Shown: positions 11,988 through 24,587, numbered from the stretch's first letter. The stretch is 32,434 bases of DNA from a virus (IMGVR_UViG_3300030329_003487:1-32434); one strand, 5' to 3'. Made by a program: numbers and translations. The notes: generated by a model from the sequence alone, not told the origin.

Positions 11988-12008
11988 TTGTTTTTCCTTT
12001 GATAAAGG

Positions 12009-12030
12009 TTACACGCAAAAAACAGTGTAA
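12009..12030. promoter_or_regulatory. TTACAC/GTGTAA inverted repeat in the divergent phoH/lipoprotein gap
   Basis: TTACAC at 12009-12014 and GTGTAA at 12025-12030 form a 6-bp inverted repeat with a ten-base A-rich gap. It sits between divergent starts at 11987 and 12043, a natural operator position. TAAATA just inside the right arm could serve as a -10 for the plus-strand gene. Confidence 0.45.
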
Positions 12031-12042
12031 ATAAAAGTAGAA

Positions 12043-12564
12043 ATGAAAGCCTACATCAAAAAAATGTCTTGGGTGCTGGCTGTTTTGTTTCTTTTCTTAC
12101 ATTCGGGGTGTGGTCTTTTAAACTATAATTCATTTAAAAAAGAAAATGGAAATTATATTAGACACTATAATTCATGTGGACCCGATGCTATTCAAGACGC
12201 AATGAAAGCTCTTGAAAACAAATTAATATCAAAAAAAAATATCAGCACCGAAATCCAATCCAATGGAAACGTAAGAAGAACACTAATAGCAGCAATTGTC
12301 CATCATAATGGTTTATGGGTTACTTTCCCCTCTGAACTTAAGAAATACTTCTCAGATAGAGAATATGAAGTAACAAACACCACTCTAGATTCTCTTGTCG
12401 AAGGTGATGTTGCTATTGTTTTAATCAAAGGGCGAATTGTATATGGAGAATGGCATTGGATCACATGGCCAACCTATTCAAAAGAAAAAATCAAAAATTA
12501 TTACAAGCATACAGACACTTCAGTAATAAAGGTATACAAAATAAAAAAGAGAGCCGCGAATTAA
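12043..12564 (+). CDS. Putative lipoprotein with a C39-like cysteine peptidase fold
   Basis: 173 residues. Residues 1-22 form a lipoprotein signal peptide (KK, then a Val/Leu/Phe run, then HSGC with Cys23 as lipid anchor; His in the lipobox is unusual). The mature part has CGPDAIQDAM (Cys45) and GEWHWITWP (His138), the Cys-then-His arrangement of C39/papain-like domains. Such proteins cleave peptides or have lost activity. A phage-encoded exported peptidase-like lipoprotein could alter the host envelope or exclude other phages; this is inference. It is one of two plus-strand genes and stands as a single cistron, suggesting a moron. Confidence 0.6.
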   Translation: MKAYIKKMSWVLAVLFLFLHSGCGLLNYNSFKKENGNYIRHYNSCGPDAIQDAMKALENKLISKKNISTEIQSNGNVRRTLIAAIVHHNGLWVTFPSELKKYFSDREYEVTNTTLDSLVEGDVAIVLIKGRIVYGEWHWITWPTYSKEKIKNYYKHTDTSVIKVYKIKKRAAN

Positions 12565-12661
12565 CACGGCCCCCCGCTCGGCATTGCGTCGAGCTAAGAA
12601 GCGGACGCCCTGAAAGCGTTTTAGGATCGACTGAGCGCGAGTCCTTGCTTCTTTAAATATT
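12565..12661. other. GC-rich structured gap between convergent genes (terminator or small RNA)
   Basis: About 97 bases, clearly richer in G+C than the flanks. One hairpin pairs GCTCG (12576-12580) with CGAGC (12590-12594). A second pairs AAGAAGC-GGAC (12596-12606) with GTCC-TT-GCTTCTT (12641-12653), followed on the plus strand by TTTAAATATTTTA. It can end the plus-strand lipoprotein transcript and may also act for the opposing HNH gene. A short open frame through it has no other support. Confidence 0.5.
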
Positions 12662-13036
12662 TTATCCCTTTTTTTGTATTCCGTCAAAAAAATTTTTCAC
12701 TCTTGTCCTAGAATATACATTCTTTGCTAAATTAACAGGTATACAAACAAATTCTACATTACCCCGAATGTATCCCCTATTGGGGTTTATCCTATCCAAA
12801 GAAGCTACTTTTAGGTCTTTTGATCCGTTCAATCCGTTTAACCTCTTCGTCGATGAAGTAAGCACCATCTCATAGCCTGTATACGGACAAATGCCTCCTT
12901 GTTTTTCCCAAATTTTTTTTAAATACTTGGGGGATATGTCAAATTCCTTGCACCAAGAGGGTTTTATCCTTCTTGGCCTGTTCGCTTTACCCTTTGACTC
13001 ATTATAGTAGTACTTAAAAGGTGATAGTTCGTCCAT
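12662..13036 (-). CDS. HNH-type endonuclease-like protein
   Basis: 124 residues. It has a compact HNH-like core: GGICPYTGYEM (Cys50), ASLDRINPNRGYIRGNVEFVC (Asp81, Arg82, Cys98) and NLAKN. This is the 'CxxTG ... LDRI ... GYxxGNVxxVC' pattern of phage and restriction HNH nucleases; the first His of the classical motif is replaced, as in several phage members. It may be a free-standing homing endonuclease or a packaging-related nickase. It is isolated between a GC-rich structured gap and the methyltransferase gene. No good Shine-Dalgarno is seen. Confidence 0.7.
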   Translation of the reverse strand: MDELSPFKYYYNESKGKANRPRRIKPSWCKEFDISPKYLKKIWEKQGGICPYTGYEMVLTSSTKRLNGLNGSKDLKVASLDRINPNRGYIRGNVEFVCIPVNLAKNVYSRTRVKNFFDGIQKKG

Positions 13037-13054
13037 AATAGACGTTAGTTGTTT

Positions 13055-13084
13055 GTAATTATGTTTATTTATTCATAATTATAA
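13055..13084. repeat. AT-rich 10-bp-phased array at the methyltransferase 3' end
   Basis: GTAATTATGT, TTATTTATTC and ATAATTATAA follow with a 10-bp period; the array covers the methyltransferase stop codon and lies just upstream of the HNH gene. It belongs to the same family as the array at 11181. Confidence 0.45.
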
Positions 13085-13610
13085 CACCAAATTGCCTTTC
13101 GCCATTATAGCGGAGTAGTTCGACTGAGTAATTGTCAAAATAATTCTTTAATTCTTTTATCCACCAACAAATATCCTTAATTGTTTTATGCGCGTTTGTT
13201 CCATCAGGCAGTATTGAGTATGCCTCCCTTGTGCAAACCACTAAATACATCACAGAAGGGTCTAAAATATCAAATTGATTATAAACGCCCCGAAGCTCAT
13301 CTTCATAAACATGCTCTAATACATCAGTACATATCAACATATCGTACTTTTTATCAGGAAGGTCTTTGTATTCTGGTATTGCTGGGTCGTAACCGTCTAC
13401 ATTAACGCTTAGGTTTGAATCATTTAAGGCTTTTAACAGCGTTCCCTTGCCGCATCCAAAATCAATAACAGAATTTAATTCATCAAACGCACCGAATTTA
13501 CGTTGTTTGATTATTTTTTCTACTTCTAATAGATACCCAATACTAGTCGCCCCATACGAAGGGTCTTGTTCATGTAGGGTTTTGTATAAATCTGCGTCCC
13601 GGAAATTCAC
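13065..13610 (-). CDS. Class I SAM-dependent methyltransferase
   Basis: 181 residues. Motif I is VIDFGCGKGTLL (about 48-59), followed by an acidic ligand region (VDGYDP) and a motif II/III-like YDMLICTDVLEHV with the 'D.LEH' turn typical of small-molecule or carbohydrate-modifying methyltransferases (Methyltransf_11/23 type). There is no NPPY/DPPY DNA-methylase motif, so DNA methylation is less likely. The substrate cannot be told. Upstream lies a gap with long G and C tracts. Confidence 0.75.
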   Translation of the reverse strand: MNFRDADLYKTLHEQDPSYGATSIGYLLEVEKIIKQRKFGAFDELNSVIDFGCGKGTLLKALNDSNLSVNVDGYDPAIPEYKDLPDKKYDMLICTDVLEHVYEDELRGVYNQFDILDPSVMYLVVCTREAYSILPDGTNAHKTIKDICWWIKELKNYFDNYSVELLRYNGERQFGVIIMNK

Positions 13611-13796
13611 TTTTAATTATAATTAATAATTGGAAAGTTGTCAAATTTTTGGAATAGGGGGGTCTTTTGGCTGGGGAGAATGATGACAGACACCCCCCCC
13701 GCTTAAATAAATCCCCCCTATTTAGCTTTTTTTGGAAAGGGGGGGCAAAAAAATGCCATACCGTTCTGGCTTTGAATATAATTTAGCTAGATTTTA
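13611..13796. other. Gap with alternating long G and C tracts
   Basis: No convincing gene. AATAGGGGGG (13653-13662) pairs perfectly with CCCCCCTATT (13713-13722). An eight-C tract lies between them, and a further seven-G tract (13739-13745) could compete for the C runs. Homopolymer G/C runs are striking in this AT-rich sequence. Possible roles are termination after the 75-residue gene or control of the methyltransferase gene downstream. Assembly error in the homopolymers is also possible. Confidence 0.45.
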
Positions 13797-14024
13797 TTAG
13801 TGAATCCATTCCCAGAGTCTTTCGTGTCTCCAGTCAGCGAATTTTTCGGAATCGTTTAGTTCGTCCAACTCTTCTGAACTCATTTCGCGGTAACTCTCAC
13901 CGTCTTTTATCCAGCACTCACTTATAAAAGCATCACAAAAATCAGGATAATCTTCAAAATTTACATTTTCCCAAGCATCATCCGCTAAATTTTTTGTGTC
14001 AATTTCTGTTTTTACGTTTTTCAT
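13797..14024 (-). CDS. Small acidic phage protein, unknown
   Basis: 75 residues, very acidic and Trp-rich (YPDFCDAFISECWIKDGE, then DWRHERLWEWIH). The 'YPDFCDAFI' stretch is reminiscent of small conserved hypothetical phage proteins, but I recognise no function. No Shine-Dalgarno is present; instead TAAACT lies exactly six bases before the ATG, the same spacing as the proposed leaderless genes at 14.8-18.5 kb. A 13-bp repeat array lies immediately upstream. Confidence 0.65.
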   Translation of the reverse strand: MKNVKTEIDTKNLADDAWENVNFEDYPDFCDAFISECWIKDGESYREMSSEELDELNDSEKFADWRHERLWEWIH

Positions 14025-14048
14025 AATTAAAGTTTAAAATTAATTCGC

Positions 14049-14163
14049 TAAATAAATTACTTAAATAAATTACCGCATCAATCGCTGGCATCAATTCCCG
14101 CATCAATTGTCCGTATCAATTGTCCGTATCAATTGGCGGTATCAATTGGCGGTAGTAATACGC
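14049..14163. repeat. 13-bp iteron array flanked by AT-rich 13-mers
   Basis: Seven tandem 13-bp units (consensus CGTATCAATTGTC) run from 14073 to 14163, several containing the palindrome CAATTG. They are preceded by two copies of TAAATAAATTAC (14049-14060, 14062-14073) that keep the same 13-bp spacing. Iterons beside AT-rich 13-mers are the classic layout of replication origins; an operator array for the 75-residue gene is the alternative. Confidence 0.6.
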
Positions 14164-14171
14164 ACCTTTAA

Positions 14172-14187
14172 TTTAGTGAGGGTTAAT
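14172..14187 (-). promoter_or_regulatory. Sequence identical to the phage T3 promoter core
   Basis: On the minus strand ATTAACCCTCACTAAA matches positions -16 to -1 of the T3 RNA polymerase promoter (AATTAACCCTCACTAAA) exactly. The +1 to +6 region (TTAAAG) lacks the GGGAGA start. It also encodes the last codons and stop of the 89-residue gene, and points at the iteron array. No T7-like polymerase gene is in the window, so function is uncertain. Confidence 0.35.
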
Positions 14188-14442
14188 CTCACGGTCATCC
14201 ACAAAGCTATTCCAGAAGGGCAAGCGGGCAAGCTCCTCTGTGCTTTGTTCGGTTACTTTAACCAGCACCAAGCCGAGGCGTTGGCGACGGTGCGCGTTCA
14301 TGCCCCGATTGATTTCTTTAATGTCGTAAGGGTGAAAGCTGTGGTCAGCATAAGTGAACCGTGCATGAGTTGCACCCTCTGCTACTGCGTTGGCGTACTT
14401 TTTCCAGTCCTCTGGGCTTAATTCTGATAGTAGATTTTCCAT
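14173..14442 (-). CDS. Small hypothetical protein
   Basis: 89 residues from the ATG at 14442 (MENLLSELSPEDW). A longer frame to 14487 exists but overlaps the upstream gene by 38 bases. N-terminal helix, then a segment rich in His/Tyr/Arg (THARFTYADHSFHPYDIKE) and a basic helix. No family recognised. Its stop codon lies in the T3-promoter-like sequence. Confidence 0.6.
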   Translation of the reverse strand: MENLLSELSPEDWKKYANAVAEGATHARFTYADHSFHPYDIKEINRGMNAHRRQRLGLVLVKVTEQSTEELARLPFWNSFVDDREINPH

Positions 14443-14449
14443 AATCGTT

Positions 14450-14662
14450 TTAGTCTCTGTCTCTGATGTCGTTGCCATCATTGTCATTGTAATAGCCTGA
14501 CACGCCCCACATCTCGTCGTAGTTGGGGGAGTTGTTTGCCACTGGTCGCACGGGGGGAAGCTCTGGCACGGGTACTTCCAGCGCGGCTGCTTGTTTGGCT
14601 TCTTCTTTCTCTTTCATCTTATCCCTTATCCTTAAAATGTTTAACCAGTCTGCTCTTTTCAT
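14450..14662 (-). CDS. Small charged hypothetical protein
   Basis: 70 residues (MKRADWLNILRIRDKMKEKEEAKQ). A charged N-terminal helix is followed by a Pro/Val linker (VPVPELPPVRPV) and a polar Tyr/Asn/Asp-rich tail. I chose the ATG at 14662, one base after the upstream stop, over the ATG at 14695 that overlaps the previous gene. GGAAATGGA may serve as a weak ribosome site. Function unknown. Confidence 0.55.
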   Translation of the reverse strand: MKRADWLNILRIRDKMKEKEEAKQAAALEVPVPELPPVRPVANNSPNYDEMWGVSGYYNDNDGNDIRDRD

Positions 14663-14663
14663 G

Positions 14664-14828
14664 CTATTCCATTTCCTGCCAGCTTTTGCCATCATCGTAA
14701 GAAATCAAATCCAATGCGTGGATGCAGATTGCCTCTTGTCCTTCGTGGTCAAATCCACGCACTTCGTACTCTGTACCGTTTACAACGGCGTTTCCGTTTT
14801 CGTTTAGTTGTATGTCGTTCATAATCAT
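14664..14828 (-). CDS. Small hypothetical protein, leaderless gene
   Basis: 54 residues (MIMNDIQLNENGNAVVNGTEYEV...). It reads like a compact beta-rich domain with a terminal YDDGKSWQEME. No Shine-Dalgarno is present: the extended -10 TGATACTAT ends six bases before the ATG, so the mRNA probably begins at the start codon. It is the last member of the promoter-ORF-hairpin cassette array. Confidence 0.6.
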   Translation of the reverse strand: MIMNDIQLNENGNAVVNGTEYEVRGFDHEGQEAICIHALDLISYDDGKSWQEME

Positions 14829-14834
14829 GCGTCT

Positions 14835-14871
14835 ATAGTATCACAGGAGGTGGGACATCCGTAGTCCCACC
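14835..14871 (-). promoter_or_regulatory. Boundary element A1: hairpin plus extended -10
   Basis: GGTGGGAC (14849-14856) and GTCCCACC (14864-14871) form a perfect 8-bp stem with a seven-base loop. The -10 TACTAT (14835-14840) with TG upstream follows on the minus strand. The hairpin occupies the -35 region of this promoter and lies just after the stop of the gene before it. Confidence 0.65.
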
Positions 14872-14883
14872 CCTTAAGTTCTT

Positions 14884-15120
14884 TCATACCTCTGGAAACC
14901 CTGCGTCATACGCCTGAACCTCTGCATCACTCCACAGAGGGTGAAAGTCGGTGAGTCCGTCCTCGGTATAGGCAAAAATCTCCGCTTTGAAAATAATTGC
15001 TCCCTTTTCATAGGCGTCCAAAACTATCACTTGAGCAATCTCGATCAGCGTGTCGATATCGTCATGCCAAGCCAGTTCGGTGTCGCCTTGCATCAGTTTG
15101 TATGTGTGTTTGTATTCCAT
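14884..15120 (-). CDS. Small hypothetical acidic protein
   Basis: 78 residues (MEYKHTYKLMQGDTELAWHDD...). Mixed alpha/beta pattern with hydrophobic helix TLIEIAQVIVLDAY, ending in DAEVQAYDAGFPEV. Unlike its neighbours it has a real leader with AAGGAAAC, so it is translated conventionally from a promoter at 15154-15190. Function unknown. Confidence 0.65.
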   Translation of the reverse strand: MEYKHTYKLMQGDTELAWHDDIDTLIEIAQVIVLDAYEKGAIIFKAEIFAYTEDGLTDFHPLWSDAEVQAYDAGFPEV

Positions 15121-15153
15121 TGTTTGTTTCCTTCTTTGTTTATGTCTGCGAAC

Positions 15154-15190
15154 ATTATCTCATAGAGGGTGGGACATCCGTAGTTCTATC
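15154..15190 (-). promoter_or_regulatory. Boundary element A2 (decayed hairpin) with -10 GATAAT
   Basis: The left arm GGTGGGAC (15168-15175) is intact but the right arm is changed to GTTCTATC. TGAGATAAT forms an extended -10 at 15154-15162. Transcription would start about 25 bases before the ATG at 15120, giving a leader with a ribosome site, unlike the other copies. Confidence 0.55.
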
Positions 15191-15200
15191 GAAATCTTTT

Positions 15201-15395
15201 TCAATTTTCTTCGTGTAACGTCCATACTGCGTGGGTTGTTACTGTATCGGGATTATCGTCCCAACGAATGGCGAGCCGCCCGTTAACGTGTTTGCGTGGG
15301 GTGTCTAACAGCCACGCCACAGCACCGACCTTGCGAGGGTTACGGTGATGGCTTACGCGCTGTCCAACGTGGGCTTTGTTCATCTTGATTTTCAT
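15201..15395 (-). CDS. Small SH3-like domain protein, leaderless gene
   Basis: 64 residues. The pattern 'VGQRVSHHRNPRKVGAVAWLL ... HVNGRLAIRWDD' resembles small SH3/KOW-like beta-barrels. It is similar to the product of 17995..18195 (shared start MKIK, VxHR, then PRHPVNG/PRKHVNG). The -10 TATACT ends six bases before the ATG and no Shine-Dalgarno is seen. It may be a nucleic-acid or protein adaptor. Confidence 0.6.
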   Translation of the reverse strand: MKIKMNKAHVGQRVSHHRNPRKVGAVAWLLDTPRKHVNGRLAIRWDDNPDTVTTHAVWTLHEEN

Positions 15396-15401
15396 GCTAG
15401 T

Positions 15402-15438
15402 AGTATATCACAAGAGGTGGGACATCTGCTGTCCTACC
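15402..15438 (-). promoter_or_regulatory. Boundary element A3
   Basis: Imperfect 8-bp stem (GGTGGGAC with GTCCTACC, 15416-15438) followed by TGATATACT. The TAG stop of the preceding gene lies inside the stem arm, and ATG of the next gene is six bases after TATACT. Confidence 0.65.
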
Positions 15439-15670
15439 ATGTAACTCTTTCAATCTTTTTTATGGTGCGAATCTGCCAAGGCTCGTCTTCAGTACGCCGC
15501 CAGCGACTAAAACCCTTGTTGCTTTCCACGATATAGCGAGCATGGTCTTTGTCTCGTGCTGCGATGAATACGGTGCTGTCATTGTCAAAGGTTACTTCCC
15601 AAGTGACTTCTGGTAGTGGTGGTAGGCTTCTCATCTGGTCGTCTCTCACTTTCTGGGTATAGTATGCCAT
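15434..15670 (-). CDS. Small hypothetical protein
   Basis: 78 residues from the ATG at 15670; an in-frame GTG (near 15651) or ATG (near 15636, MRSLPPLPEV) may be the true start. The frame extends upstream to 15814, but that part crosses the palindromic module and looks non-coding. The core 'TFDNDSTVFIAARDKDHARYIVE ... IRTIKKIERV' shares a plan with 16349..16531 and 18234..18452: beta strand, 'ARD-x-x-HA' helix, terminal KKIE strand. Possibly a small paralogous family. Confidence 0.55.
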   Translation of the reverse strand: MAYYTQKVRDDQMRSLPPLPEVTWEVTFDNDSTVFIAARDKDHARYIVESNKGFSRWRRTEDEPWQIRTIKKIERVTW

Positions 15671-15722
15671 AACAGTGACAAAAAAGCGAGAACAATCCAG
15701 GCAAGTTACTAACATTTTTTTT

Positions 15723-15790
15723 GCTATTGTGAACATTTTCTTCTTGACATTCCGCCTTCCGCCGGGCAGCCCGGCCAAACGCATGTCAAG
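15723..15790 (-). repeat. Palindromic module M1
   Basis: Core GCCGGGCAGCCCGGC (15761-15775) nested within CTTGACAT (15743-15750) and ATGTCAAG (15783-15790), a perfect 8-bp outer repeat. A TTGTGAA sequence lies beside it. First of seven copies between 15.7 and 26.0 kb, each upstream of a minus-strand gene. Confidence 0.7.
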
Positions 15791-15800
15791 GAAAAAATAC

Positions 15801-15865
15801 AAAAAAGTTCGCACCCCTCATCCGTCACGCTGCGTTTAAAGCGTAGTTTCAACAAGGGCGCGAAC
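15801..15865 (-). terminator. Rho-independent terminator after the 144-residue gene
   Basis: On the minus strand GTTCGCGCCC pairs with GGGTGCGAAC (10 bp, one G-T pair) around an inner ACGCT/AGCGT hairpin, directly followed by TTTTTTG. It begins nine bases after the stop of 15874..16308. Confidence 0.8.
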
Positions 15866-15873
15866 CCAGTAGC

Positions 15874-16308
15874 CTACATGGCGCATAAGTCACCTATGGT
15901 GAAGGAAGGAGAGGGCTTCAGTGCCTCCTTGACTGCGGCGGTATGCTCGCCCTCAAGCTGCCGCTGATACTCACGCTCTGCCTCCTCACGCTCCTCCTCC
16001 TCACGCATATCCGCAGAAGCTTGATCTATACGCTTCTGCATCCACTCGATACTGGCTTCAAGGGCTGCGTCAGTGGTGGGCTTCTCTGGCCAGTAGGGCT
16101 TATGGCCATAGGCAGACTTGTAAACGTCCACATAACACTCGGCTTGCATGAGCCAGTCAAACTGTAGTGGCGTAGTGACACCGTACTCTGCCCAGCGCGA
16201 TGGGTCTTCTACTAGGGTGGTGGCCCAGCGACCCTCTCCTGCATTAACCCACTCACGGGTCTTGGCGTTGATAGCGGCGATGTGGTTGCGTAGGTCGTTG
16301 TTCATCAT
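15874..16308 (-). CDS. Hypothetical protein with Glu/Arg-rich helix
   Basis: 144 residues from the ATG at 16308 (MMNNDLRNHIAAINAK). The N-terminal half contains Trp/Tyr/Pro (AEYGVTTPLQFDWLMQAECYVDVYK). Residues about 95-130 form a long charged helix (ADMREEEEREEAEREYQRQ) likely to be coiled coil. TATACT lies eight bases before the first ATG, close to the leaderless arrangement; the upstream extension MIYYTH overlaps the promoter and is rejected. A strong terminator follows. Confidence 0.65.
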   Translation of the reverse strand: MMNNDLRNHIAAINAKTREWVNAGEGRWATTLVEDPSRWAEYGVTTPLQFDWLMQAECYVDVYKSAYGHKPYWPEKPTTDAALEASIEWMQKRIDQASADMREEEEREEAEREYQRQLEGEHTAAVKEALKPSPSFTIGDLCAM

Positions 16309-16316
16309 ATGCGTAT

Positions 16317-16353
16317 AGTATATCACAGTAGGTGGGACATCTGTAGTCCTACC
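16317..16353 (-). promoter_or_regulatory. Boundary element A4
   Basis: Stem GGTGGGAC/GTCCTACC at 16331-16353 followed by TGATATACT (-10 at 16317-16322). The preceding gene's TAG (16349-16351) is part of the stem arm. Confidence 0.65.
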
Positions 16354-16531
16354 GATTAAATTCTTTAACTTTTTTTACGAGACATCTGCAAACGCGCTCC
16401 CCCGTTTTAGAGGTGCAGAACAGTCTATCCGCAACGCGTTGCGCGTGGCCCTCATTCCTTGCGTTAATAAACCCAAGGGTTGCGTCCCCGTCAAATGAGA
16501 GAACCTCGAACAATGTTTCTTTAATCATCAT
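16349..16531 (-). CDS. Small hypothetical protein, leaderless gene
   Basis: 60 residues (MMIKETLFEVLSFDGDATLGF...). 'FINARNEGHAQRVADRL ... LVKKVKEF' parallels the proteins of 15434..15670 and 18234..18452. The start was set at 16531 because TATACT ends exactly six bases upstream; a longer frame would run through the promoter. The stop codon lies in element A4. Confidence 0.6.
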   Translation of the reverse strand: MMIKETLFEVLSFDGDATLGFINARNEGHAQRVADRLFCTSKTGERVCRCLVKKVKEFNR

Positions 16532-16537
16532 GCGTAT

Positions 16538-16574
16538 AGTATAGCACAGTAGGTGGGACATCCGCTGTCCTACT
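16538..16574 (-). promoter_or_regulatory. Boundary element A5
   Basis: Hairpin 16552-16574 with right arm GTCCTACT (one more mismatch than A4) and extended -10 TGCTATACT (16538-16543). It holds the stop codon of 16570..16767 and drives 16349..16531. Confidence 0.6.
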
Positions 16575-16767
16575 TACAATTTTCTTCTTCGTCGATTTGA
16601 GCCATGTCATCATCATAGGCTTGTACGTCTTCAATGGTACAAGGCGCACCAATTGCGCGAGAGATGTTCATCGCTCTTTCGGCTAACCATTCACGATGTT
16701 CGATTTCCGCCTCAACGTTAGGCGTGATGAACTCTTCGATTGTGGGCATCATGTCGTTAATCATCAT
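16570..16767 (-). CDS. Small acidic helical protein, leaderless gene
   Basis: 65 residues (MMINDMMPTIEEFITPNVEAEIEHREWLAERAM...). Predicted all-helical and acidic. TATAAT lies six bases before the ATG, with TTGTCA 17 bp further upstream, the best complete sigma70 promoter of the leaderless set. The TAG stop is inside element A5. Function unknown. Confidence 0.65.
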   Translation of the reverse strand: MMINDMMPTIEEFITPNVEAEIEHREWLAERAMNISRAIGAPCTIEDVQAYDDDMAQIDEEENCK

Positions 16768-16773
16768 GCAAGC

Positions 16774-16802
16774 ATTATATCACGCAGCTTTGTATGTGAC
16801 AA
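16774..16802 (-). promoter_or_regulatory. Sigma70 promoter for leaderless gene 16570..16767
   Basis: -35 TTGTCA (16797-16802), 17-bp spacer, extended -10 TGATATAAT (hexamer 16774-16779), then GCTTGC and the ATG. Confidence 0.75.
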
Positions 16803-16810
16803 GAAAAAAC

Positions 16811-16884
16811 TTCGTTGGTCAAGAGGAAAGTTATCCACGGCTTGTTAATAACTTCCGCCGGGCAGCCCGGCCAACGAATGTCAA
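16811..16884 (-). repeat. Palindromic module M2
   Basis: GCCGGGCAGCCCGGC at 16857-16871. In this copy the outer repeat is TTCGTTGG (16811-16818) with CCAACGAA (16871-16878), enclosing a TTATCCACGG ... TTGTTAATAA segment that looks like two facing DnaA boxes. Confidence 0.65.
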
Positions 16885-16904
16885 CTATAATTTTTAATAT
16901 GTTG

Positions 16905-17168
16905 TTATAGTCTTTTAATATAATTCACCCAATGTTCAACGTCGCTTTCGTTCTGCCAGCCTTTGACGGTATCACCCCAATCAGCAGGGTCAACCATGTG
17001 ATTGTTAAAGAAGCAACCAATCTCATACATACCTTTTTCGCTACCGTATGAATACTTGTGCTTCACAACAGAAACGTCATAGCCATTAGGCAATTCCACA
17101 TATGCCTGAATCGCACCCTCTCCGTGCGTCTCGGATATGTCATCGAATTTTAAATCTTCAAATTTCAT
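16905..17168 (-). CDS. Small hypothetical phage protein
   Basis: 87 residues (MKFEDLKFDDISETHGEGAIQAYVELPNGYDVSVVKHKYSYGSEKGMYEIGCF...). Alpha/beta domain of a type often seen as a conserved hypothetical in phages; the central 'YDVSVVKHKYSYGSEKGMYEIG' forms adjacent strands. The start overlaps the upstream stop as ATGA, so it is translationally coupled to the 33-residue membrane protein. Function unknown. Confidence 0.65.
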   Translation of the reverse strand: MKFEDLKFDDISETHGEGAIQAYVELPNGYDVSVVKHKYSYGSEKGMYEIGCFFNNHMVDPADWGDTVKGWQNESDVEHWVNYIKRL

Positions 17169-17266
17169 AGTGTTTCAATATAAATGCCTGTTAATATAAT
17201 AACAATAAAAGATATAACACCCACACCAATAAAAAAATGCAAGTCTCTTAAATCATCGTTTTTCAT
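17165..17266 (-). CDS. 33-residue single-pass membrane protein
   Basis: MKNDDLRDLHFFIGVGVISF... with one hydrophobic helix of about 21 residues after a charged N-terminus. The stop TGA overlaps the next ATG. Placement is tight between 17283..17603 and 16905..17168. Size and composition resemble phage small membrane proteins, but no function is recognised. Confidence 0.5.
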   Translation of the reverse strand: MKNDDLRDLHFFIGVGVISFIVIILTGIYIETL

Positions 17267-17282
17267 AATAATGTTTTTAAGG

Positions 17283-17603
17283 TTACAGCGTCATCAGCGC
17301 AATCATGGCTAGGCCAGCGATAACAGTAGCGATTGCGATGAGAGAGTTAAGCACTCGAACAGTCTTGTCGTCATCTACTTTTGTGGTTGGCTTGTAATGT
17401 TGCACGATTTGTTTCGCTGTCATGGTAGCCGTTTGTTTTTCTTCGTTTACCCAACGCCACATTCCTTTGCGTTGAAATTGTTCGCCATTAGTGTTTGTGC
17501 CTGAGCTTGTAATGATGCGACCATCCCAATGCCATTGACCTTTAGCACCGCAAGGAATCATTGGTTCTGGGTCTGTGTTGAAGATTGTTTTCATTTTCAT
17601 CAT
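17283..17603 (-). CDS. Tail-anchored small membrane protein, leaderless gene
   Basis: 106 residues. A soluble Trp-rich N-terminal domain (GQWHWDGRIITSSGTN, KGMWRWVNEE) is followed by a C-terminal transmembrane helix at about 84-105 (SLIAIATVIAGLAMIALM). TAAACT ends six bases before the ATG at 17603, and no Shine-Dalgarno is present. The anchoring suggests an inner-membrane role in host takeover or superinfection exclusion (inference). Confidence 0.6.
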   Translation of the reverse strand: MMKMKTIFNTDPEPMIPCGAKGQWHWDGRIITSSGTNTNGEQFQRKGMWRWVNEEKQTATMTAKQIVQHYKPTTKVDDDKTVRVLNSLIAIATVIAGLAMIALMTL

Positions 17604-17609
17604 GCGATT

Positions 17610-17646
17610 AGTTTACCACAGAGGGTGGGACATCCGCTGTCCTAGT
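17610..17646 (-). promoter_or_regulatory. Boundary element A6
   Basis: Hairpin 17624-17646 (right arm GTCCTAGT) followed by TGGTAAACT (-10 at 17610-17615). The stop TAG of 17642..17839 is in the stem. Confidence 0.6.
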
Positions 17647-17839
17647 AGAGACTTTCTTTTTCGTTGAAGTGTTGCTCTAATAGGTCGAACTGGTGTTCAC
17701 CTGTACCTCTGTTGTTGGCGTATTCTAGTTGTCTGAATAGCCAGCAAGCCTTTTGAAAGGTTTCAGCCAGCTTGGCGCATTCAAGATTCATCTCGATAGT
17801 GGTTGCGACTTCGTTGGTTGGTAGGTTTCTTTTCTGCAT
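17642..17839 (-). CDS. Small helical hypothetical protein
   Basis: 65 residues from the ATG at 17839 (MQKRNLPTNEVATTIEMNLECAKL...). All-helical with 'FQKACWLFRQLEYANN'. I prefer this start to 17887 because it lies five bases after the stop of the 35-residue ORF, suggesting coupled translation. Ends with TAG inside element A6. Function unknown. Confidence 0.55.
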   Translation of the reverse strand: MQKRNLPTNEVATTIEMNLECAKLAETFQKACWLFRQLEYANNRGTGEHQFDLLEQHFNEKESLY

Positions 17840-17844
17840 AATCT

Positions 17845-17952
17845 TTAGTGTGTTGCGAGGAAGATAGCCAGTTGCTCCTCTTCCCATTTGGTTAGCTTAA
17901 TGCCCTTTGCTACGGCTTCTAACAGTAGTCTTGCTTGGTGTTCGTTAATCAT
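17845..17952 (-). CDS. 35-residue ORF, likely leader cistron
   Basis: MINEHQARLLLEAVAKGIKL... one amphipathic helix. TATACT lies ten bases before the ATG, longer than the six bases seen in other cassettes. It probably forms a two-gene cassette with 17642..17839. Confidence 0.45.
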   Translation of the reverse strand: MINEHQARLLLEAVAKGIKLTKWEEEQLAIFLATH

Positions 17953-17962
17953 TATGTGTTGC

Positions 17963-17999
17963 AGTATAGCATAGGGGGTGGGACATCCGTAGTCCTACC
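17963..17999 (-). promoter_or_regulatory. Boundary element A7
   Basis: Hairpin 17977-17999 (GGTGGGAC/GTCCTACC) followed by TATACT (17963-17968). TAG of 17995..18195 is in the stem arm. Confidence 0.6.
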
Positions 18000-18195
18000 A
18001 CTCGCTTTCTACCAATAAGCCTTTTAGCATTTTAATCCGTCTTGGCGGGATATCCCCACCTTGTGGAAGGCTGGGATAATGCTCTACCTCTACCCAACCA
18101 TTTACGGGATGCCTTGGACTGAGGTCACTGGTAACGATTCCTAACCATCCACCATTATCACGATGGCGCACTTTGGTTCCTGCTTTAATTTTCAT
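17995..18195 (-). CDS. Small SH3-like domain protein, leaderless gene
   Basis: 66 residues (MKIKAGTKVRHRDNGGWLGIVTS...). The 'AGTKVRHRDNGGWLGIV' opening with 'VNGWVEVEHY' is typical of small SH3/KOW-like barrels and is similar to 15201..15395. TATACT lies six bases before the ATG. The stop is inside element A7. Confidence 0.6.
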   Translation of the reverse strand: MKIKAGTKVRHRDNGGWLGIVTSDLSPRHPVNGWVEVEHYPSLPQGGDIPPRRIKMLKGLLVESEW

Positions 18196-18201
18196 GCTAG
18201 T

Positions 18202-18238
18202 AGTATATCACAAGGGGTGGGGCATTGGCTGTCCTACC
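18202..18238 (-). promoter_or_regulatory. Boundary element A8
   Basis: Hairpin 18216-18238 with slightly diverged left arm (GGTGGGGC) and extended -10 TGATATACT (hexamer 18202-18207). The preceding gene's stop (18234-18236) is in the arm. Eighth and last copy. Confidence 0.6.
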
Positions 18239-18452
18239 TACATCTTTCTTCATCTTTTTCTCTACGCAATTCTTCTTCTTCTTCTGGTGTGAACAAGCGG
18301 CCCCTCTCAATCTTCTCAATCTTTAGGCCAATGTGCTTACCAAAGAATTCACGACGTACCTGTGCGAAGGATGCGGCAGTTGTTCCCCAGCGTGTGCCGT
18401 TGGTAGTCGTTACAATAAAGTCAGTGGTTTGGTTTTCGTCTTTCATTTTCAT
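18234..18452 (-). CDS. Small hypothetical protein, leaderless gene
   Basis: 72 residues (MKMKDENQTTDFIVTTTNGTRW...). A strand-helix-strand unit 'WGTTAASFAQVRREFF ... LKIEKIERG' is followed by a Glu/Arg helix. Similar plan to 15434..15670 and 16349..16531. The start is set by TATACT six bases upstream and TTGTCA 17 bp before that; the longer frame to 18512 crosses the promoter. Confidence 0.6.
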   Translation of the reverse strand: MKMKDENQTTDFIVTTTNGTRWGTTAASFAQVRREFFGKHIGLKIEKIERGRLFTPEEEEELRREKDEERCR

Positions 18453-18458
18453 GCGAGT

Positions 18459-18487
18459 AGTATAGCACACAGCCATGCGTGTGACAA
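18459..18487 (-). promoter_or_regulatory. Sigma70 promoter heading the cassette array
   Basis: -35 TTGTCA (18482-18487), 17-bp spacer, extended -10 TGCTATACT (hexamer 18459-18464), six bases, ATG. Confidence 0.75.
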
Positions 18488-18504
18488 GGAAAATCCTGGC
18501 TGGG

Positions 18505-18578
18505 TTATGCACGGGCTGTGAATAACTTTTCCTTGACGCGCCTGTTCGCCGGGCAGCCCGGCCGCTCTCTAAGTCAAG
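18505..18578 (-). repeat. Palindromic module M3
   Basis: GCCGGGCAGCCCGGC at 18548-18562, outer CTTGAC (18532-18537) and GTCAAG (18573-18578). TTATGCACGG and TGTGAATAA beside it form an inverted DnaA-box-like pair. Confidence 0.7.
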
Positions 18579-18601
18579 TTAATTAAACACTTATTTATTT
18601 A

Positions 18602-18618
18602 CCTTATTTAATACCAGG
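18602..18618. repeat. 17-bp copy of the 3' end of gene 23032..23277
   Basis: CCTTATTTAATACCAGG is identical to 23043-23059, where it encodes the C-terminus LVLNK. Both copies lie beside a palindromic module (M3, M5). Here it would encode LVLNKVNK and a stop but no upstream gene, so it looks like a remnant of a duplicated or replaced cassette. Confidence 0.5.
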
Positions 18619-18629
18619 ACTGACAATGT

Positions 18630-19014
18630 TAAAAAATGGAAGGGAGGATTCCTTGTTTACCTCCATCTATTCGGGGCCACAGCTACAAGTTTCAGCTAGA
18701 TATCCCTACTTTGAGCCAACCCTTACCAGCCCCCAGAGACGGTAATCTCCTGCCAGTAAACATTGCACTTTAGCTCCTATGACTAGAGCTTATTCAGTCA
18801 CTTCCGATGAGTCTTCCGTCGAAGACTCAAATTTGCTGTCGGTGTGAGGGGCTCGAACCCTCCCCCGTCCCTATCGTGTCACCTTCACGCCTTGTTTTGG
18901 AGCGTCCTCCCAGCGTGTAGGCTTTCAGCCACGGGCGGTTGCCTTGTCTGTCTTCTCATTTAAGACCAGCAACTTCCAATCTCACCAACATAAAATCAGT
19001 TGGGGAGAGCCTAC
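18630..19014 (-). ncRNA. Candidate structured RNA, about 385 nt, with its own terminator
   Basis: No supported ORF in this stretch. On the minus strand many stems nest: GTAGGC/GCCTAC (19009-19014 with 18917-18922), CACGC/GCGTG (18913-18917 with 18886-18890) enclosing GGAG-GACG-CTCC, a perfect GAGTCTTC-GACG-GAAGACTC hairpin (18809-18828), and a tRNA-T-arm-like GAGGG-TTCGAGC-CCCTC (18846-18862). TGTTTAC (18756-18762) can pair with the loop of a terminal hairpin ATGGAGG/CCTCC..CCAT followed by TTTTTT (18630-18666). TATAGT at 19013-19018 may be the -10. A tmRNA was considered; no acceptor/CCA or tag could be placed. The far edge of the 5' end is uncertain and may reach 19080. Confidence 0.55.
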
Positions 19015-19091
19015 TATACCGATGTTGGTTTTGGCTTTTTGCGCTGTTCGCTGCCTTCGGCGTCTCGGCCCAACTTTAAATTGTCAAAAAA

Positions 19092-19490
19092 CTACTTATA
19101 CTCCTTGACGACATAAACATTCCTACCGTCAATAAAAACTTCTTTTGCGTTCCTGACTTCTTCACCAGTCTTCGCATCTACAAACGTTTCGTATTTATAA
19201 GGGTTGTATGTTACCCTGCGTAACGTTTTTGGCTTTTGCAACTTCCGCTCTTCTAGAGATGGAGTATTGCCCAAGGACACAGCACCACGCACATAAGCGT
19301 GAACATTTTTCCGTCCTTCTTTTAAAACTCTTTTCCGCCCTTTTTCACTTACTATAAACCGTACCGTCCCAATATGCTTGCTTACTTTAATTCGGATAGC
19401 GTGTGTGTGCTTTACCACCAATCCAGTATCCCTGTCTTTTACGCTCAAACATTTGCGGTGCAAGTTATAATATACGTCTACTTCGTTCAT
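19092..19490 (-). CDS. Basic hypothetical protein
   Basis: 132 residues (MNEVDVYYNLHRKCLSVKDRDTG...). Beta-rich and strongly basic; segments such as VYYNLHRKCLSVKD, HTHAIRIKVSKHIGTVRFIV and VFIDGRNVYVVKEY suggest a small beta domain that may bind nucleic acid. No family recognised. The promoter is TTGACA, 17-bp spacer, TAACAT (19500-19528), with only a short leader and no Shine-Dalgarno. The structured RNA candidate follows directly. Confidence 0.65.
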   Translation of the reverse strand: MNEVDVYYNLHRKCLSVKDRDTGLVVKHTHAIRIKVSKHIGTVRFIVSEKGRKRVLKEGRKNVHAYVRGAVSLGNTPSLEERKLQKPKTLRRVTYNPYKYETFVDAKTGEEVRNAKEVFIDGRNVYVVKEYK

Positions 19491-19499
19491 CGTTTTATA

Positions 19500-19528
19500 A
19501 TGTTACTATAATCTTGCTTTGTTGTCAA
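19500..19528 (-). promoter_or_regulatory. Sigma70 promoter for 19092..19490
   Basis: TTGACA (19523-19528), 17-bp spacer, TAACAT (19500-19505). It directly follows the terminator of the gene before it. Confidence 0.65.
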
Positions 19529-19530
19529 TT

Positions 19531-19587
19531 AAAAAAAACCCTCTAGGCCGTTTCCTCTTTCGGACGTTTGTTACTTCACCTAGAGGG
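19531..19587 (-). terminator. Strong rho-independent terminator
   Basis: CCCTCTAGG (minus strand) pairs perfectly with CCTAGAGGG over nine base pairs and is followed by eight T. It lies 13 bases after the stop of 19600..19842. Confidence 0.85.
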
Positions 19588-19599
19588 CTTCCGATGAAC

Positions 19600-19842
19600 C
19601 TAGTTTGCCAAGGACACGATTCGGTCATAACGGAAGCTACGCACTTCCCCGCTTCGATTCAACACCCTAGCACGGAATCCAACATTAGGATTCTTTTCAG
19701 CTAGGTTGCCAAAGGTATTCTTGTGAATAACGTCGGACACAATATAGAGCTTGGTCTGACCCTTGGCGTTGCGGTAAATCAGATTGTACCGCTTCGGTTC
19801 GATGCCCAATAGGGACTTGAGTTTGTTCATCAGTTTCTTCAT
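19600..19842 (-). CDS. Small WYL/Sm-like beta-barrel protein
   Basis: 80 residues from the ATG at 19842 (MKKLMNKLKSLLGIEPKRYNLIYRN...). The C-terminal part 'FRARVLNRSGEVRSFRYDRIVSL' resembles the small WYL_2/Sm-like barrel seen in phage proteins, which binds nucleic acids or small ligands. GAAAGAAA serves as a weak ribosome site. The frame continues to 19950 but that part overlaps the promoter (19872-19900) and the end of the next gene, so it was trimmed. Confidence 0.6.
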   Translation of the reverse strand: MKKLMNKLKSLLGIEPKRYNLIYRNAKGQTKLYIVSDVIHKNTFGNLAEKNPNVGFRARVLNRSGEVRSFRYDRIVSLAN

Positions 19843-19871
19843 AGGTTTCTTTCTTTTCTTGTTACTTTCTA

Positions 19872-19900
19872 ATTGTCTCACAAACCTGACTTTCATGCAA
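19872..19900 (-). promoter_or_regulatory. Promoter with TGTGA-GACAAT
   Basis: -35 TTGCAT (19895-19900), 17-bp spacer ending TTTGTGA, -10 GACAAT (19872-19877), then TAGAA. The same layout recurs at 22534, 24125 and 25711. Confidence 0.65.
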
Positions 19901-19924
19901 GCTTTTTTTTCGTTTTTTTGCCTT

Positions 19925-20380
19925 TTACTTGAGGTTAAATTTTCGCCCAAGCCTATAATGCAAATACCGTTTTTTTATGTCATTGAGTAGGGGCATGGAT
20001 GAAACTTCTAGCAAAGAGGATTCGGACAAAGGAGAAAACCTATTAGCAAAAGGTTGCCACTTTACAGTCAATCCTCCAAAATAAAAGCTTTCAAGTAATT
20101 CATAAACAGCCCCGAACCTTTTCAAGTGAAAGCAGTAAAACTCTTTTCCGCTCCCTCCTGCGTTTGGAATCTCTGCTAGTCTTTGCTTTAAGCCTCTCTC
20201 TCGTTTTAACGCTTCCGATTCGCTTGTCACCTCTCCAATGAAAACATCTTCGCGTTGATGATTCAAAGCCGTTTGCGGCCAACGTTTAGGTGCTTCTTGT
20301 GAGTGTCCAATCTTTGTCACAAAGGTTGGAATTTCTTCGGTCTGACTGCTACCGAGAACAGAATAAATTTGATGCGACAT
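19925..20380 (-). CDS. GIY-YIG-like (T5orf172/MUG113-type) protein
   Basis: 151 residues. 'TFVTKIGHSQEAPKRW', 'VFIGEVTSESEALKRERGLKQRL' and 'KEFYCFHL' match the strand-helix pattern of the T5orf172/MUG113 branch of GIY-YIG nucleases (vKIGxS...R, Glu on the following helix). The catalytic tyrosines are less clear than in canonical GIY-YIG, so activity is uncertain. AAAGGAT precedes the ATG; it is six bases downstream of the ParB-like gene and likely co-transcribed. Confidence 0.6.
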   Translation of the reverse strand: MSHQIYSVLGSSQTEEIPTFVTKIGHSQEAPKRWPQTALNHQREDVFIGEVTSESEALKRERGLKQRLAEIPNAGGSGKEFYCFHLKRFGAVYELLESFYFGGLTVKWQPFANRFSPLSESSLLEVSSMPLLNDIKKRYLHYRLGRKFNLK

Positions 20381-20386
20381 AATAAT

Positions 20387-21259
20387 TTATCCTTTCAGTT
20401 GGGTAACAGATTCAACCTTCGCGTCTTTGCGAATGTTTTTACCATTTAGGAAATACTGCATAGCCAAAAGGACTCGCCTAGCTTGCCATTTAGTATCTTG
20501 CCAATCTTGAACCGATGTTGTCGTGATGAGACTGTGGACGTAATAAGCTGGGTTAGAGCGTTTTAGCTTTTCGCCTTTCAAGTCGTACCCATTCACAGCT
20601 TCAAAAGCAAACTCTTGTGCTTTAACTGGGTCAATGCTGTGAAGCATAGCCAAAGGCATAGAAAAAGCTTTACGCTTGAACAGCCTTCCGTTTTCATCAT
20701 TGGGAAGAAACTTTGCGGCAAACAAAATACTATCTTTGTTGTCAGTTAAAAACTTCAAACGCTCTGCAAAAGAGTAAATCGCTCCAGAATTAGTAGACGA
20801 CTTTCCATCACACCAATCTTGCCAAAACATACTAATTGAAGCAGCGCGAGAACGATAAGACTTCGGTAAACCCCATTCCTTAAAGACTGCCAAAGTAAAC
20901 CTATCAGCCCACGAACGAGGGTTGCCGATGTCAGTCATAAAAATAGATTCCGAATCTGCACCCGTTTCTACAATGAAAGTCACTGGACGATTCTGCTTCG
21001 TTACTGCGTAAAGCCGATGTTGCCCGTCAATCAAACTTCCGTTCTTGTCGAACTTAATTAAAGAAGGGAAAAAGTTTCCGTCCTCCATATCCAAAACAAG
21101 TGTGCGCGTCTTGATAGAGCATGGGCGCATATCTCGGTTTTGTTCGTTGTATTCATCCAGAATCTCCTGTGCGAATTCTGGCGTAATGTTGTAATAGCCA
21201 ACGGCTTGGTTTTTAGAAATCTCAGTCAGAGTTTCGATTGATTCTTTTGTTTCGTTCAT
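20387..21259 (-). CDS. ParB/Srx-like protein (DGQHR motif)
   Basis: 290 residues from the ATG at 21259. Residues 50-90 carry 'LVLDMEDGNFFPSLIKFDKNG' and LIDGQHRLYAV, the DGQHR-type ParB/sulfiredoxin-fold signature (CTPase or nuclease-like, also found in DNA-modification and phosphorothioation-related proteins). The rest is helical. An alternative start at 21331 is disfavoured because a promoter (21303-21331) covers it. It heads a two-gene unit with the GIY-YIG-like gene and lies downstream of module M4. Confidence 0.7.
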   Translation of the reverse strand: MNETKESIETLTEISKNQAVGYYNITPEFAQEILDEYNEQNRDMRPCSIKTRTLVLDMEDGNFFPSLIKFDKNGSLIDGQHRLYAVTKQNRPVTFIVETGADSESIFMTDIGNPRSWADRFTLAVFKEWGLPKSYRSRAASISMFWQDWCDGKSSTNSGAIYSFAERLKFLTDNKDSILFAAKFLPNDENGRLFKRKAFSMPLAMLHSIDPVKAQEFAFEAVNGYDLKGEKLKRSNPAYYVHSLITTTSVQDWQDTKWQARRVLLAMQYFLNGKNIRKDAKVESVTQLKG

Positions 21260-21302
21260 CTTTTTTAATAGGTTAATAGGGCTTTCCCCTGTTGCTTTTT
21301 TA

Positions 21303-21331
21303 ATTGTGCCACAGTCTTGTTTTGCGTGCAA
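21303..21331 (-). promoter_or_regulatory. Promoter for the ParB-like/GIY-YIG unit
   Basis: -35 TTGCAC (21326-21331), 17-bp spacer, extended -10 TGGCACAAT (hexamer 21303-21308). An AT-rich 10-bp-phased pair (21343-21362) and module M4 lie upstream. Confidence 0.6.
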
Positions 21332-21342
21332 GATAAAAATGC

Positions 21343-21362
21343 ATAATTATGAATAATTATCA
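21343..21362. repeat. AT-rich 10-bp-phased pair
   Basis: ATAATTATGA directly followed by ATAATTATCA, between module M4 and the ParB-like promoter. Confidence 0.5.
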
Positions 21363-21373
21363 GACCGACACCC

Positions 21374-21432
21374 CTTGTTGATAACTTTTTCTTGACAATC
21401 TGCCGGGCAGCCCGGCCGTTCAATAAGTCAAG
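21374..21432 (-). repeat. Palindromic module M4
   Basis: GCCGGGCAGCCCGGC at 21402-21416, CTTGAC (21391-21396) and GTCAAG (21427-21432). TTGTTGATAACTT precedes it. The left gap is five bases instead of ten to twelve. Confidence 0.7.
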
Positions 21433-21435
21433 CTT

Positions 21436-21639
21436 TTAAAATGTTTTATACTTTAAATCTTCTGGTGTGGTGGTGGGTGGTCGCCAACCCTCATCGCATT
21501 CACAATACTTCGGACAATCATCCTCTGCGCTTCCTTCTTTGCTTACTGTCTCATGACACGTTGGGCACAAATGTAGTAAGCGAAACTGTGGGTGGTCTTG
21601 GCAAAACTTTTTTGTTAGTGGGCCGAATTTAGTTGTCAT
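21436..21639 (-). CDS. Cys-rich zinc-binding hypothetical protein
   Basis: 67 residues with six cysteines (FCQDH, HLCPTCH, DDCPKYCECDEGW), likely a treble-clef or zinc-ribbon domain. The start overlaps the upstream stop as ATGA. The C-terminus is Pro/Thr-rich. Function unknown. Module M4 follows immediately. Confidence 0.6.
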   Translation of the reverse strand: MTTKFGPLTKKFCQDHPQFRLLHLCPTCHETVSKEGSAEDDCPKYCECDEGWRPPTTTPEDLKYKTF

Positions 21640-21797
21640 ACTAATTCTTTTGTTGCTGTTGGTTCCTTACCCTCTCGGACTAGGTTAACGTCGAAACAGA
21701 CTGCGCTTAATAGCTTGCCCTTGTCCGCGTTTCTGTTACTAGCAATGATTGCCATTGTAAAAATGAAGTCAATTTGTTTTGATTCTTTTTTTGTCAT
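21636..21797 (-). CDS. 53-residue hypothetical protein
   Basis: MTKKESKQIDFIFTMAIIAS... one hydrophobic helix segment and a basic C-terminal part. GGAGG lies five bases before the ATG; it starts directly after the upstream gene ends and its stop overlaps the next ATG. Function unknown. Confidence 0.6.
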   Translation of the reverse strand: MTKKESKQIDFIFTMAIIASNRNADKGKLLSAVCFDVNLVREGKEPTATKELV

Positions 21798-21977
21798 TTA
21801 ATCCTCCGCTAATCTATCTCTTGCTGCTCCAATTACTTCTTGATAATAATTATAGTCATGGTCAGAAAGAACTCGATGCTCATGGTTCCAAGCACTCTCT
21901 GTGTTATACTTTAGCCAATCTGACAATGCCCATAAGCCTTTGTCAATCCTATCTTTGTCTACCATTCTTCCGTTCAT
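21798..21977 (-). CDS. 59-residue hypothetical protein
   Basis: MNGRMVDKDRIDKGLWALSDW... helical with many Trp/His/Tyr (SAWNHEHRVLSDHDYNYYQEV). It ends exactly where the next gene begins. An ordinary short leader; no function recognised. Confidence 0.6.
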   Translation of the reverse strand: MNGRMVDKDRIDKGLWALSDWLKYNTESAWNHEHRVLSDHDYNYYQEVIGAARDRLAED

Positions 21978-21980
21978 AAT

Positions 21981-22301: not shown

Positions 22302-22510
22302 TAAAGGACGTTAAGTTCGTAATTGAATTGCGCTTGCGAGGATAACCCAGCTTTCAAGAAAGGCAGTCCCGCTTTGATGTTGTAAAGGCGATACGCTTCT
22401 GCTTTCGCCTCAACATGAGACACACCCAACTTCTTTTGGGATTTGATGTAGTTAGTGACTAATGCAGCTTTCACCGCATTACGCGCATTATAGGTTTTGT
22501 AGGTTTTCAT
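22301..22510 (-). CDS. Small basic helical protein
   Basis: 69 residues from the ATG at 22510 (MKTYKTYNARNAVKAALVTNYIKSQ). All-helical and basic, with 'SHVEAKAEAYRLYNIKAGLPF'. The longer frame to 22543 includes the -10 box and was rejected. It is coupled to the next gene. Function unknown. Confidence 0.55.
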   Translation of the reverse strand: MKTYKTYNARNAVKAALVTNYIKSQKKLGVSHVEAKAEAYRLYNIKAGLPFLKAGLSSQAQFNYELNVL

Positions 22511-22678: not shown

Positions 22679-22682
22679 GAGG

Positions 22683-24153: not shown

Positions 24154-24572
24154 GCACTTTCTCGGTTGCCATAGTCAGAATCGGGCCTTTCCGCGCTGAT
24201 GGTTCCCATTGCATAGCAATCCAAGTTAGCAACGGACGGAGTTTTTAGATACGGCATCGTTTTGCACTGACGCCAACGTCTAGCGGCAAGTTTATCGGCC
24301 AAGGCGGGAATGAGTGCGCCACGCTTACCTTCAAACTTATGCGAGTGATTGTTAAGGATGGCATTCACCGCAGCTTTACGAAACGCACGAATCAAACGCG
24401 CTTCTTGCGTCCAGAAAGAAACAGTGAATTCATCGCGCCAATCTGGGTCGGGTTGATTGGTTGCCTTGTGGTTGTATAGGCTCCAAAAAGCTTGCTCGGC
24501 TTCCTCGTGGCTGTCGCCAGTGATGAAAACATGAATATCTTTGCCGCAGTTGATGTAATGTGTTTTAATCAT
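24150..24572 (-). CDS. Hypothetical protein, leaderless gene
   Basis: 140 residues from the ATG at 24572 (MIKTHYINCGKDIHVFITGDSHEEAEQ...). Strand-helix N-terminus with 'HEEAEQAFWSLYNH', then a basic helical region 'RLIRAFRKAAVNAIL' and 'LAARRWRQCK'. TACAAT ends six bases before the ATG. The frame continues to 24704 through module M6, which I reject as coding. Function unknown. Confidence 0.6.
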   Translation of the reverse strand: MIKTHYINCGKDIHVFITGDSHEEAEQAFWSLYNHKATNQPDPDWRDEFTVSFWTQEARLIRAFRKAAVNAILNNHSHKFEGKRGALIPALADKLAARRWRQCKTMPYLKTPSVANLDCYAMGTISAERPDSDYGNRESA

Positions 24573-24578
24573 GTGAGC

Positions 24579-24587
24579 ATTGTACCA
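24579..24587 (-). promoter_or_regulatory. Extended -10 TGGTACAAT for a leaderless gene
   Basis: TGGTACAAT (hexamer 24579-24584) with TGTCAGTG upstream. The sequence before it (TCTCGCTTTGTTCTGTCA) resembles that before gene 15434..15670. Confidence 0.55.

Follow-up and report, generated by a model that had tools for sequence, protein, structure and literature searches.

A palindrome-promoter cassette repeated before tiny genes of an uncultured phage, with predicted leaderless starts

Why should a row of tiny phage genes each carry a promoter whose -10 box ends at the same short distance from the start codon? The question is raised by an array at positions 14800-18500 of IMGVR_UViG_3300030329_003487, a 32,434-bp virus record from IMG/VR that is referred to here, over its whole length, as the window. 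Its minus strand holds nearly every substantial gene, and the genes are packed and mostly co-directional. On this strand a TAnnnT box ends exactly 6 nt 5' of the ATG (N6 spacing) at 14828, 15395, 16531, 16767, 17603, 18195, and 18452, and also at 24572 outside the array, just as a preliminary description of this DNA had reported. Three further array genes share the upstream elements at other spacings, namely N8 at 16308, N10 at 17952, and N33 at 15120, where the gap of 33 nt contains an AAGGA Shine-Dalgarno (SD) sequence.

Eight of the ten array promoters proved to be copies of one cassette, which was absent from shuffled sequence. Along the minus strand (5' to 3'), the cassette consists of a 23-nt palindrome (GGTAGGAC-N7-GTCCCACC), 8 nt ending in TGn, the -10 box (most commonly TATACT), 6 nt, and the ATG. 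Six of the eight window cassettes have a palindrome whose left arm includes the TAG at which the upstream frame stops, and the module measures about 45 nt from the upstream stop through the next ATG. The preliminary description had recognized the array; the palindromic repeat, its overlap with TAG stops, and its conservation in relatives were missing from it.

The pattern of the palindrome alone matched 40 stretches in IMG/VR; on 14 of the larger contigs the matches cluster in one or a few short regions. Using a weight matrix of the palindrome, we recovered 103 non-redundant copies from about 2.25 Mb of related DNA and none from shuffled DNA; the spacing counts rest on the 100 copies that have a -10 box. 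The ATG stands at exactly N6 in 69 of these, a slight undercount since the box at 14828 was called GATACT whereas the true box is TACTAT (70 copies with this one). All 69 ATGs open reading frames of at least 37 codons, the next nearby ATG lies in the same frame in 59 of 59 copies, and the N6 genes represent 50 families. An A occupies +1 in more than 90% of the 100 copies.

The spacing is likewise conserved when only the -10 region is used. A scan of the relatives with TGnTATAnT, counting open reading frame (ORF) starts within 60 nt, gave 92 starts at N6 and 0-14 at every other spacing from N0 to N29 (14 at N7, fewer than ten at each of the rest), with a single hit for the reversed motif; 38 of the 92 N6 starts have no palindrome. 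The ATG was open for at least 35 codons in 94 of 99 cases at N6 versus 0 of 15 at N1, N2, and N4. In a separate scan of the collection with the right arm and -10 box only, whose counts include some duplicate records, N6 was found in 14 of 17 sites with the left arm and in 0 of 31 without it. The geometry had been called near-invariant, which is too strong: N6 dominates at about 70%, and the remainder are mostly short-leader variants. A chance or low-complexity origin, which the AT-rich window might suggest, is refuted by this peak and by the array itself, where nine TAnnnT-N6-ATG sites open ORFs of at least 40 codons against 0.33 expected from first-order Markov resampling (200 runs). When TGn was also required, we counted six against 0.01 in the array and ten against 0.11 in the whole window.

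A second type of promoter (type A) shows the same spacing. In relatives it reads TTGACA-17-TATATT-N6-ATG, has no palindrome, and precedes genes of families that also use the cassette; in the window it occurs at 16767 and 18452 as TTGTCA, 17 nt, TATAAT or TATACT, N6, and ATG. A -35 element with at least four matches at a 16-17-nt spacer was present in 32 of 45 type A promoters, and sigma-70 promoters in non-coding DNA numbered 30 against 1.0 expected. The gene at 18195 connects the two types, as it follows a palindrome cassette in the window and TTGACA-17-TATATT in a near-identical homologue on the related contig L083, with N6 kept across the swap; the two copies carry silent differences from codon 2 on, and the protein is conserved. 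If the genes were instead read from a polycistronic message starting upstream, the -10-like boxes being incidental remnants of a repeat, the packed and mostly co-directional arrangement would be accounted for. However, TGn precedes the -10 box in 95 of 100 cassette copies, A prevails at +1, and the N6 peak recurs at promoters that lie outside the repeat and have TTGACA at a 17-nt spacing, and we consider such a message very improbable.

Upstream of type A promoters, for example at about 18520-18530 and in relatives, lies TGTGAATAAC, which resembles a DnaA box (TTATnCACA); in non-coding DNA, TGTGAATAAC occurs 17 times against 0.3 expected and TTATnCACA 34 times against 5.1. The phage also encodes a sigma-70 region 2 protein of 228 aa (9635-10321, minus strand). 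At 9632, on the same strand, TATACT-N6-ATG precedes a 362-aa gene and is conserved in several relatives; this site was kept out of the leaderless set because its -10 box overlaps the end of the upstream frame, so that the conservation may be coding.

What does the palindrome contribute? It spans -43 to -21, that is, the position of a -35 element, and lies 8 nt from the -10 box in 96 of 100 copies, whereas promoters with TTGACA lack it. Its loop is partly conserved (C at -33, AT at -30/-29), a pattern biased by the weight-matrix selection. Cassettes of similar appearance, the promoter-early stem-loops (PeSLs), have reportedly been found in T4-type phages, in work from Arbiol in 2010 and Comeau in 2014. 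By analogy, the palindrome could be an RNA stem-loop that terminates, or stabilizes the 3' end of, the upstream gene, making each junction a terminator-promoter pair. About 73 of 93 upstream genes stop inside the palindrome or at most 15 nt before it, the 8-bp arms are perfect or near-perfect, PeSLs offer a precedent (PMC4503421), and a terminator scan called terminator-like sites at several copies, though on the opposite strand.

On the sense strand there is no U-tract 3' of the palindrome (longest T-run, two), and no palindrome pair covaried above shuffles, so covariation lends no support to an RNA hairpin. Pair 4-20 is an uncompensated A.C mismatch in 68 of 100 copies. The stop codon partly explains this mismatch, as position 4 is G in 15 of 48 copies whose upstream stop lies elsewhere and in 0 of 45 where the TAG is the stop. 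Moreover, a ribosome that stops on the TAG would sit over the stem, and the palindrome is retained in 22 of 96 copies without a same-strand gene end within 60 nt, several of which sit just 3' of long GC-rich inverted repeats. Terminator function is an appreciable possibility, but one on which we would not wager. Because covariation and a U-tract are absent and the distance to the -10 box is fixed, we lean towards a DNA operator: the palindrome is a putative binding site, most likely for a DNA-binding activator or repressor. Tentatively, and with considerable doubt, this regulator might be phage-encoded and control a regulon of leaderless messages, the accessory genes being expressed by SD-independent initiation at a 5' AUG so that any inserted frame could be expressed.

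GC-rich palindromes with the core GCCGGGCAGCCCGGC or a close variant lie at 15744-15789, 16857-16871, 18548-18562, 21402-21416, and 25967-26014, most of them with TTGAC...GTCAA inverted ends, and similar long inverted repeats stand before the first cassettes in relatives.

The N6 spike, its linkage to open frames, and its retention across the promoter swap support leaderless expression. With the geometry of a standard promoter, RNA polymerase would begin transcribing at the first base, A, of the ATG, and the ribosome would load the resulting leaderless mRNA by its 5'-terminal AUG; we infer both from the sequence. In mycobacteria, leaderless translation requires a 5'-terminal ATG or GTG and needs nothing more (PMC4633059), and leaderless bacterial genes are marked by TANNNT about 12 bp 5' of the start (Zheng 2011, PMC3160421), an arrangement that the cassettes share. 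The array would then be a hypervariable block of tiny accessory genes, each a plug-in module with its own copied cassette, a transcript starting at the ATG, a regulator site in the palindrome, and shuffling by recombination between cassette copies, which would move genes among phages; genes elsewhere would use the type A sequence as a second leaderless promoter. To this reading as a whole we assign a probability of roughly 0.78.

Several observations weigh against it. About 30% of cassettes are off N6, with AGTTAAA leaders reaching 6-18 nt past the expected +1 or ATA replacing ATG; leaderless initiation is therefore not a requirement of the cassette. The copies share ancestry, and their counts are not independent events. 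The operator role draws on the absence of covariation and on spacing. Finally, many genes have a second ATG in frame, and between homologues codons 2-5 differ by 13 replacement versus 6 silent changes, which means that the main start could be this second ATG. Translation would in that case begin at an inner in-frame ATG after a 6-18-nt leader, and the ATG at +1 would be in frame merely to avoid out-of-frame harm. Leadered cassettes (AGTTAAA...ATTATG, ATAACAAATTAAGAATATG) do begin homologous genes at the inner ATG, and constraint on the residues encoded by codons 2-5 is weak. Yet the frame is retained in 69 of 69 genes, which still demands that ribosomes initiate at the 5' AUG, in several genes no inner ATG follows close to the start, and the silent changes between the L083 and window copies of the 18195 gene begin at codon 2. 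An inner start seems unlikely to us.

The preliminary description had contrasted the array with clear SD sites elsewhere and had seen a regional style. This contrast is overstated: in the window only 7 of 46 ORFs have an SD-like motif, and among 607 long ORFs of relatives the share is 15%, where shuffles give 7% (52% have A at -3), so the scarcity of SD sequences is phage-wide.

The codons after the ATG are swapped as well. Sixteen start tags of 12 nt are each common to at least two unrelated families (ATGATGAAAATG, for instance, occurs in nine), and 19 of 20 multi-member families use more than one tag. A content is 55% in codons 2-8 versus 28% in codons 16-35, and we propose that an A-rich in-frame start tag travels with the cassette. 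One family includes both forms: its leaderless members are extended by six residues, MIIETD before MKEKENTNEL, and in the leadered members the corresponding stretch, AGTTAGAAGATAAAGAAT or ATAACAAATTAAGAAT, is apparently untranslated. Gene order also varies among phages, one family having many different next neighbours. Recombination through the cassettes would be the simplest explanation of the shuffled tags and order.

PeSLs, which are described in PMC4503421, are the closest functional relatives of the cassette. Both are short, repeated combinations of promoter and stem-loop sequence, dense in hypervariable regions and associated with the shuffling of small genes; modular shuffling is seen here in gene order and start tags, and TGn before the -10 box, without a -35 element, makes for a strong sigma-70-like promoter as in PeSLs. 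They differ in that the present genome is not T4-type but belongs to another phage lineage and its cassette has another sequence, in that the start codon and upstream stop are fused into the cassette with mostly N6 between -10 box and ATG, and in that the palindrome occupies the -35 position and lacks covariation and a U-tract.

The spacing as such has precedents: this geometry is known in bacteria and has been predicted for a few mycobacteriophage genes. TANNNT leaderless genes (PMC3160421; for mycobacteria, PMC4633059) have an identical -10-to-ATG geometry and inferred 5'-AUG initiation, but they are scattered host genes, whereas here a copied, apparently mobile phage cassette with an A-rich start tag is found. 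The leaderless SigA promoters predicted in Cluster O mycobacteriophages (PMC4351075) are likewise of sigma-70 type, with the start codon's first base as +1, and those genomes contain separate palindromic repeats linked to indels; however, they have three such promoters per genome and no repeated cassettes, and their palindrome (TGTTCGG-N3-CCGAACA) is unfused. The SAS/ESAS elements of Cluster K mycobacteriophages (PMC3203893) and Cluster EF Microbacterium phages (PMC7302621) also combine repeats with upstream conserved elements near non-structural starts, the latter being inverted repeats in Cluster K (PMC3203893). SAS, a 13-bp GGGATAGGAGCCC-type repeat, lies at the ribosome-binding-site position and partly pairs with 16S rRNA; here no such repeat or SD is present, and a -10 box with its 6-nt spacer precedes the ATG instead. 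Our searches of an open-access library turned up no earlier description of a leaderless promoter cassette that recurs in phages.

All array features lie on the minus strand. Cassette 1 (14828..14871) has its palindrome at 14849-14871, with a perfect stem and G at position 4, TACTAT at 14835-14840, and N6 before the ATG at 14828 of a 54-aa gene (14664-14828). Cassette 2 (15120..15190), the leadered exception, comprises a palindrome at 15168-15190, GATAAT at 15154-15159, and the AAGGA-containing gap before the ATG at 15120 of a 78-aa gene (14884-15120). In cassette 3 (15395..15438) the palindrome (15416-15438) contains the TAG stop of the ORF 15434-15814, and TATACT (15402-15407) stands N6 from the ATG at 15395 of a 64-aa gene (15201-15395). 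Cassette 4 (16308..16353) is off-register: its palindrome (16331-16353) holds the TAG stop of gene 16349-16531, and TATACT (16317-16322) is followed at N8 by the ATG at 16308 of a 144-aa gene (15874-16308). Cassette 5 (16531..16574; palindrome 16552-16574 with the TAG stop of gene 16570-16767; TATACT 16538-16543; N6) opens the 60-aa gene 16349-16531 at ATG 16531. That upstream gene, 16570-16767 (65 aa), has the type A promoter at 16767..16802, with TTGTCA at 16797-16802, a 17-nt spacer, TATAAT at 16774-16779, and N6 before ATG 16767. Cassette 6 (17603..17646; palindrome 17624-17646 with the TAG stop of a frame ending at 17642; TAAACT 17610-17615; N6; ATG 17603) precedes a 106-aa gene (17283-17603). 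The off-register cassette 7 (17952..17999; palindrome 17977-17999 with the TAG stop of gene 17995-18195; TATACT 17963-17968; N10) leads to a 35-aa ORF at ATG 17952 with an N10 homologue in the related contig L093. Cassette 8 (18195..18238; palindrome 18216-18238 with the TAG stop of gene 18234-18452; TATACT 18202-18207; N6; ATG 18195) drives the 66-aa gene 17995-18195, whose L083 version has the type A promoter, also at N6. The 72-aa gene 18234-18452 follows the other type A promoter (18452..18487; TTGTCA 18482-18487; 17-nt spacer; TATACT 18459-18464; N6; ATG 18452). An isolated candidate outside the array (24572..24584) has TACAAT at 24579-24584, N6, ATG 24572, and a 140-aa ORF, and no palindrome. 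The array proteins had no significant Pfam match, and their PHROG matches were weak and of unknown function.

Adjoining regions contain a manA RNA match (RF01745; 18633-18829, minus strand) that at 53.9 bits falls just under the gathering score of 55.2, a tRNA-like T-arm sequence next to it at about 18840-18870, and tandem 13-nt repeats at 14102-14153 (ATCAATTGTCCGT / ATCAATTGGCGGT).

The terminase (5790-7613) has many relatives in IMG/VR, the best 80 at 69-82% identity, but reaches at most about 25% identity with cultured phages, the best matches being Mammaliicoccus, SPbeta-like, and Bacillus phages. Neither window positions 12000-24000 nor 14700-18600 matched cultured phages at the nucleotide level, and the 60-aa product of 16349-16531 matched none of their proteins. 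From the record series, the phages are apparently marine. A terminase search of genome contigs returned one metagenome-assembled genome labelled Flavobacteriales, and Bacteroidota promoters (TAnnTTTG) were not enriched (113 versus 124 expected); with this single genome and no enrichment, we assign no host. A relative of 178 kb carries a predicted transfer-messenger RNA (L132:10910-11327) with the long tag EADEILAKFGYVEEEELQLAA, which might aid host finding.

These findings suggest a route by which large uncultured phages may add or swap tiny, probably host-interacting genes through a 45-nt junction at which one gene stops and another starts in frame, without need of a leader. The combination of palindrome, TGnTATACT, N6, and ATG would also serve as a sequence handle for overlooked small phage genes and for correcting start sites, and homologous genes that carry leadered or leaderless cassettes would offer a natural matched series for studying leaderless translation.

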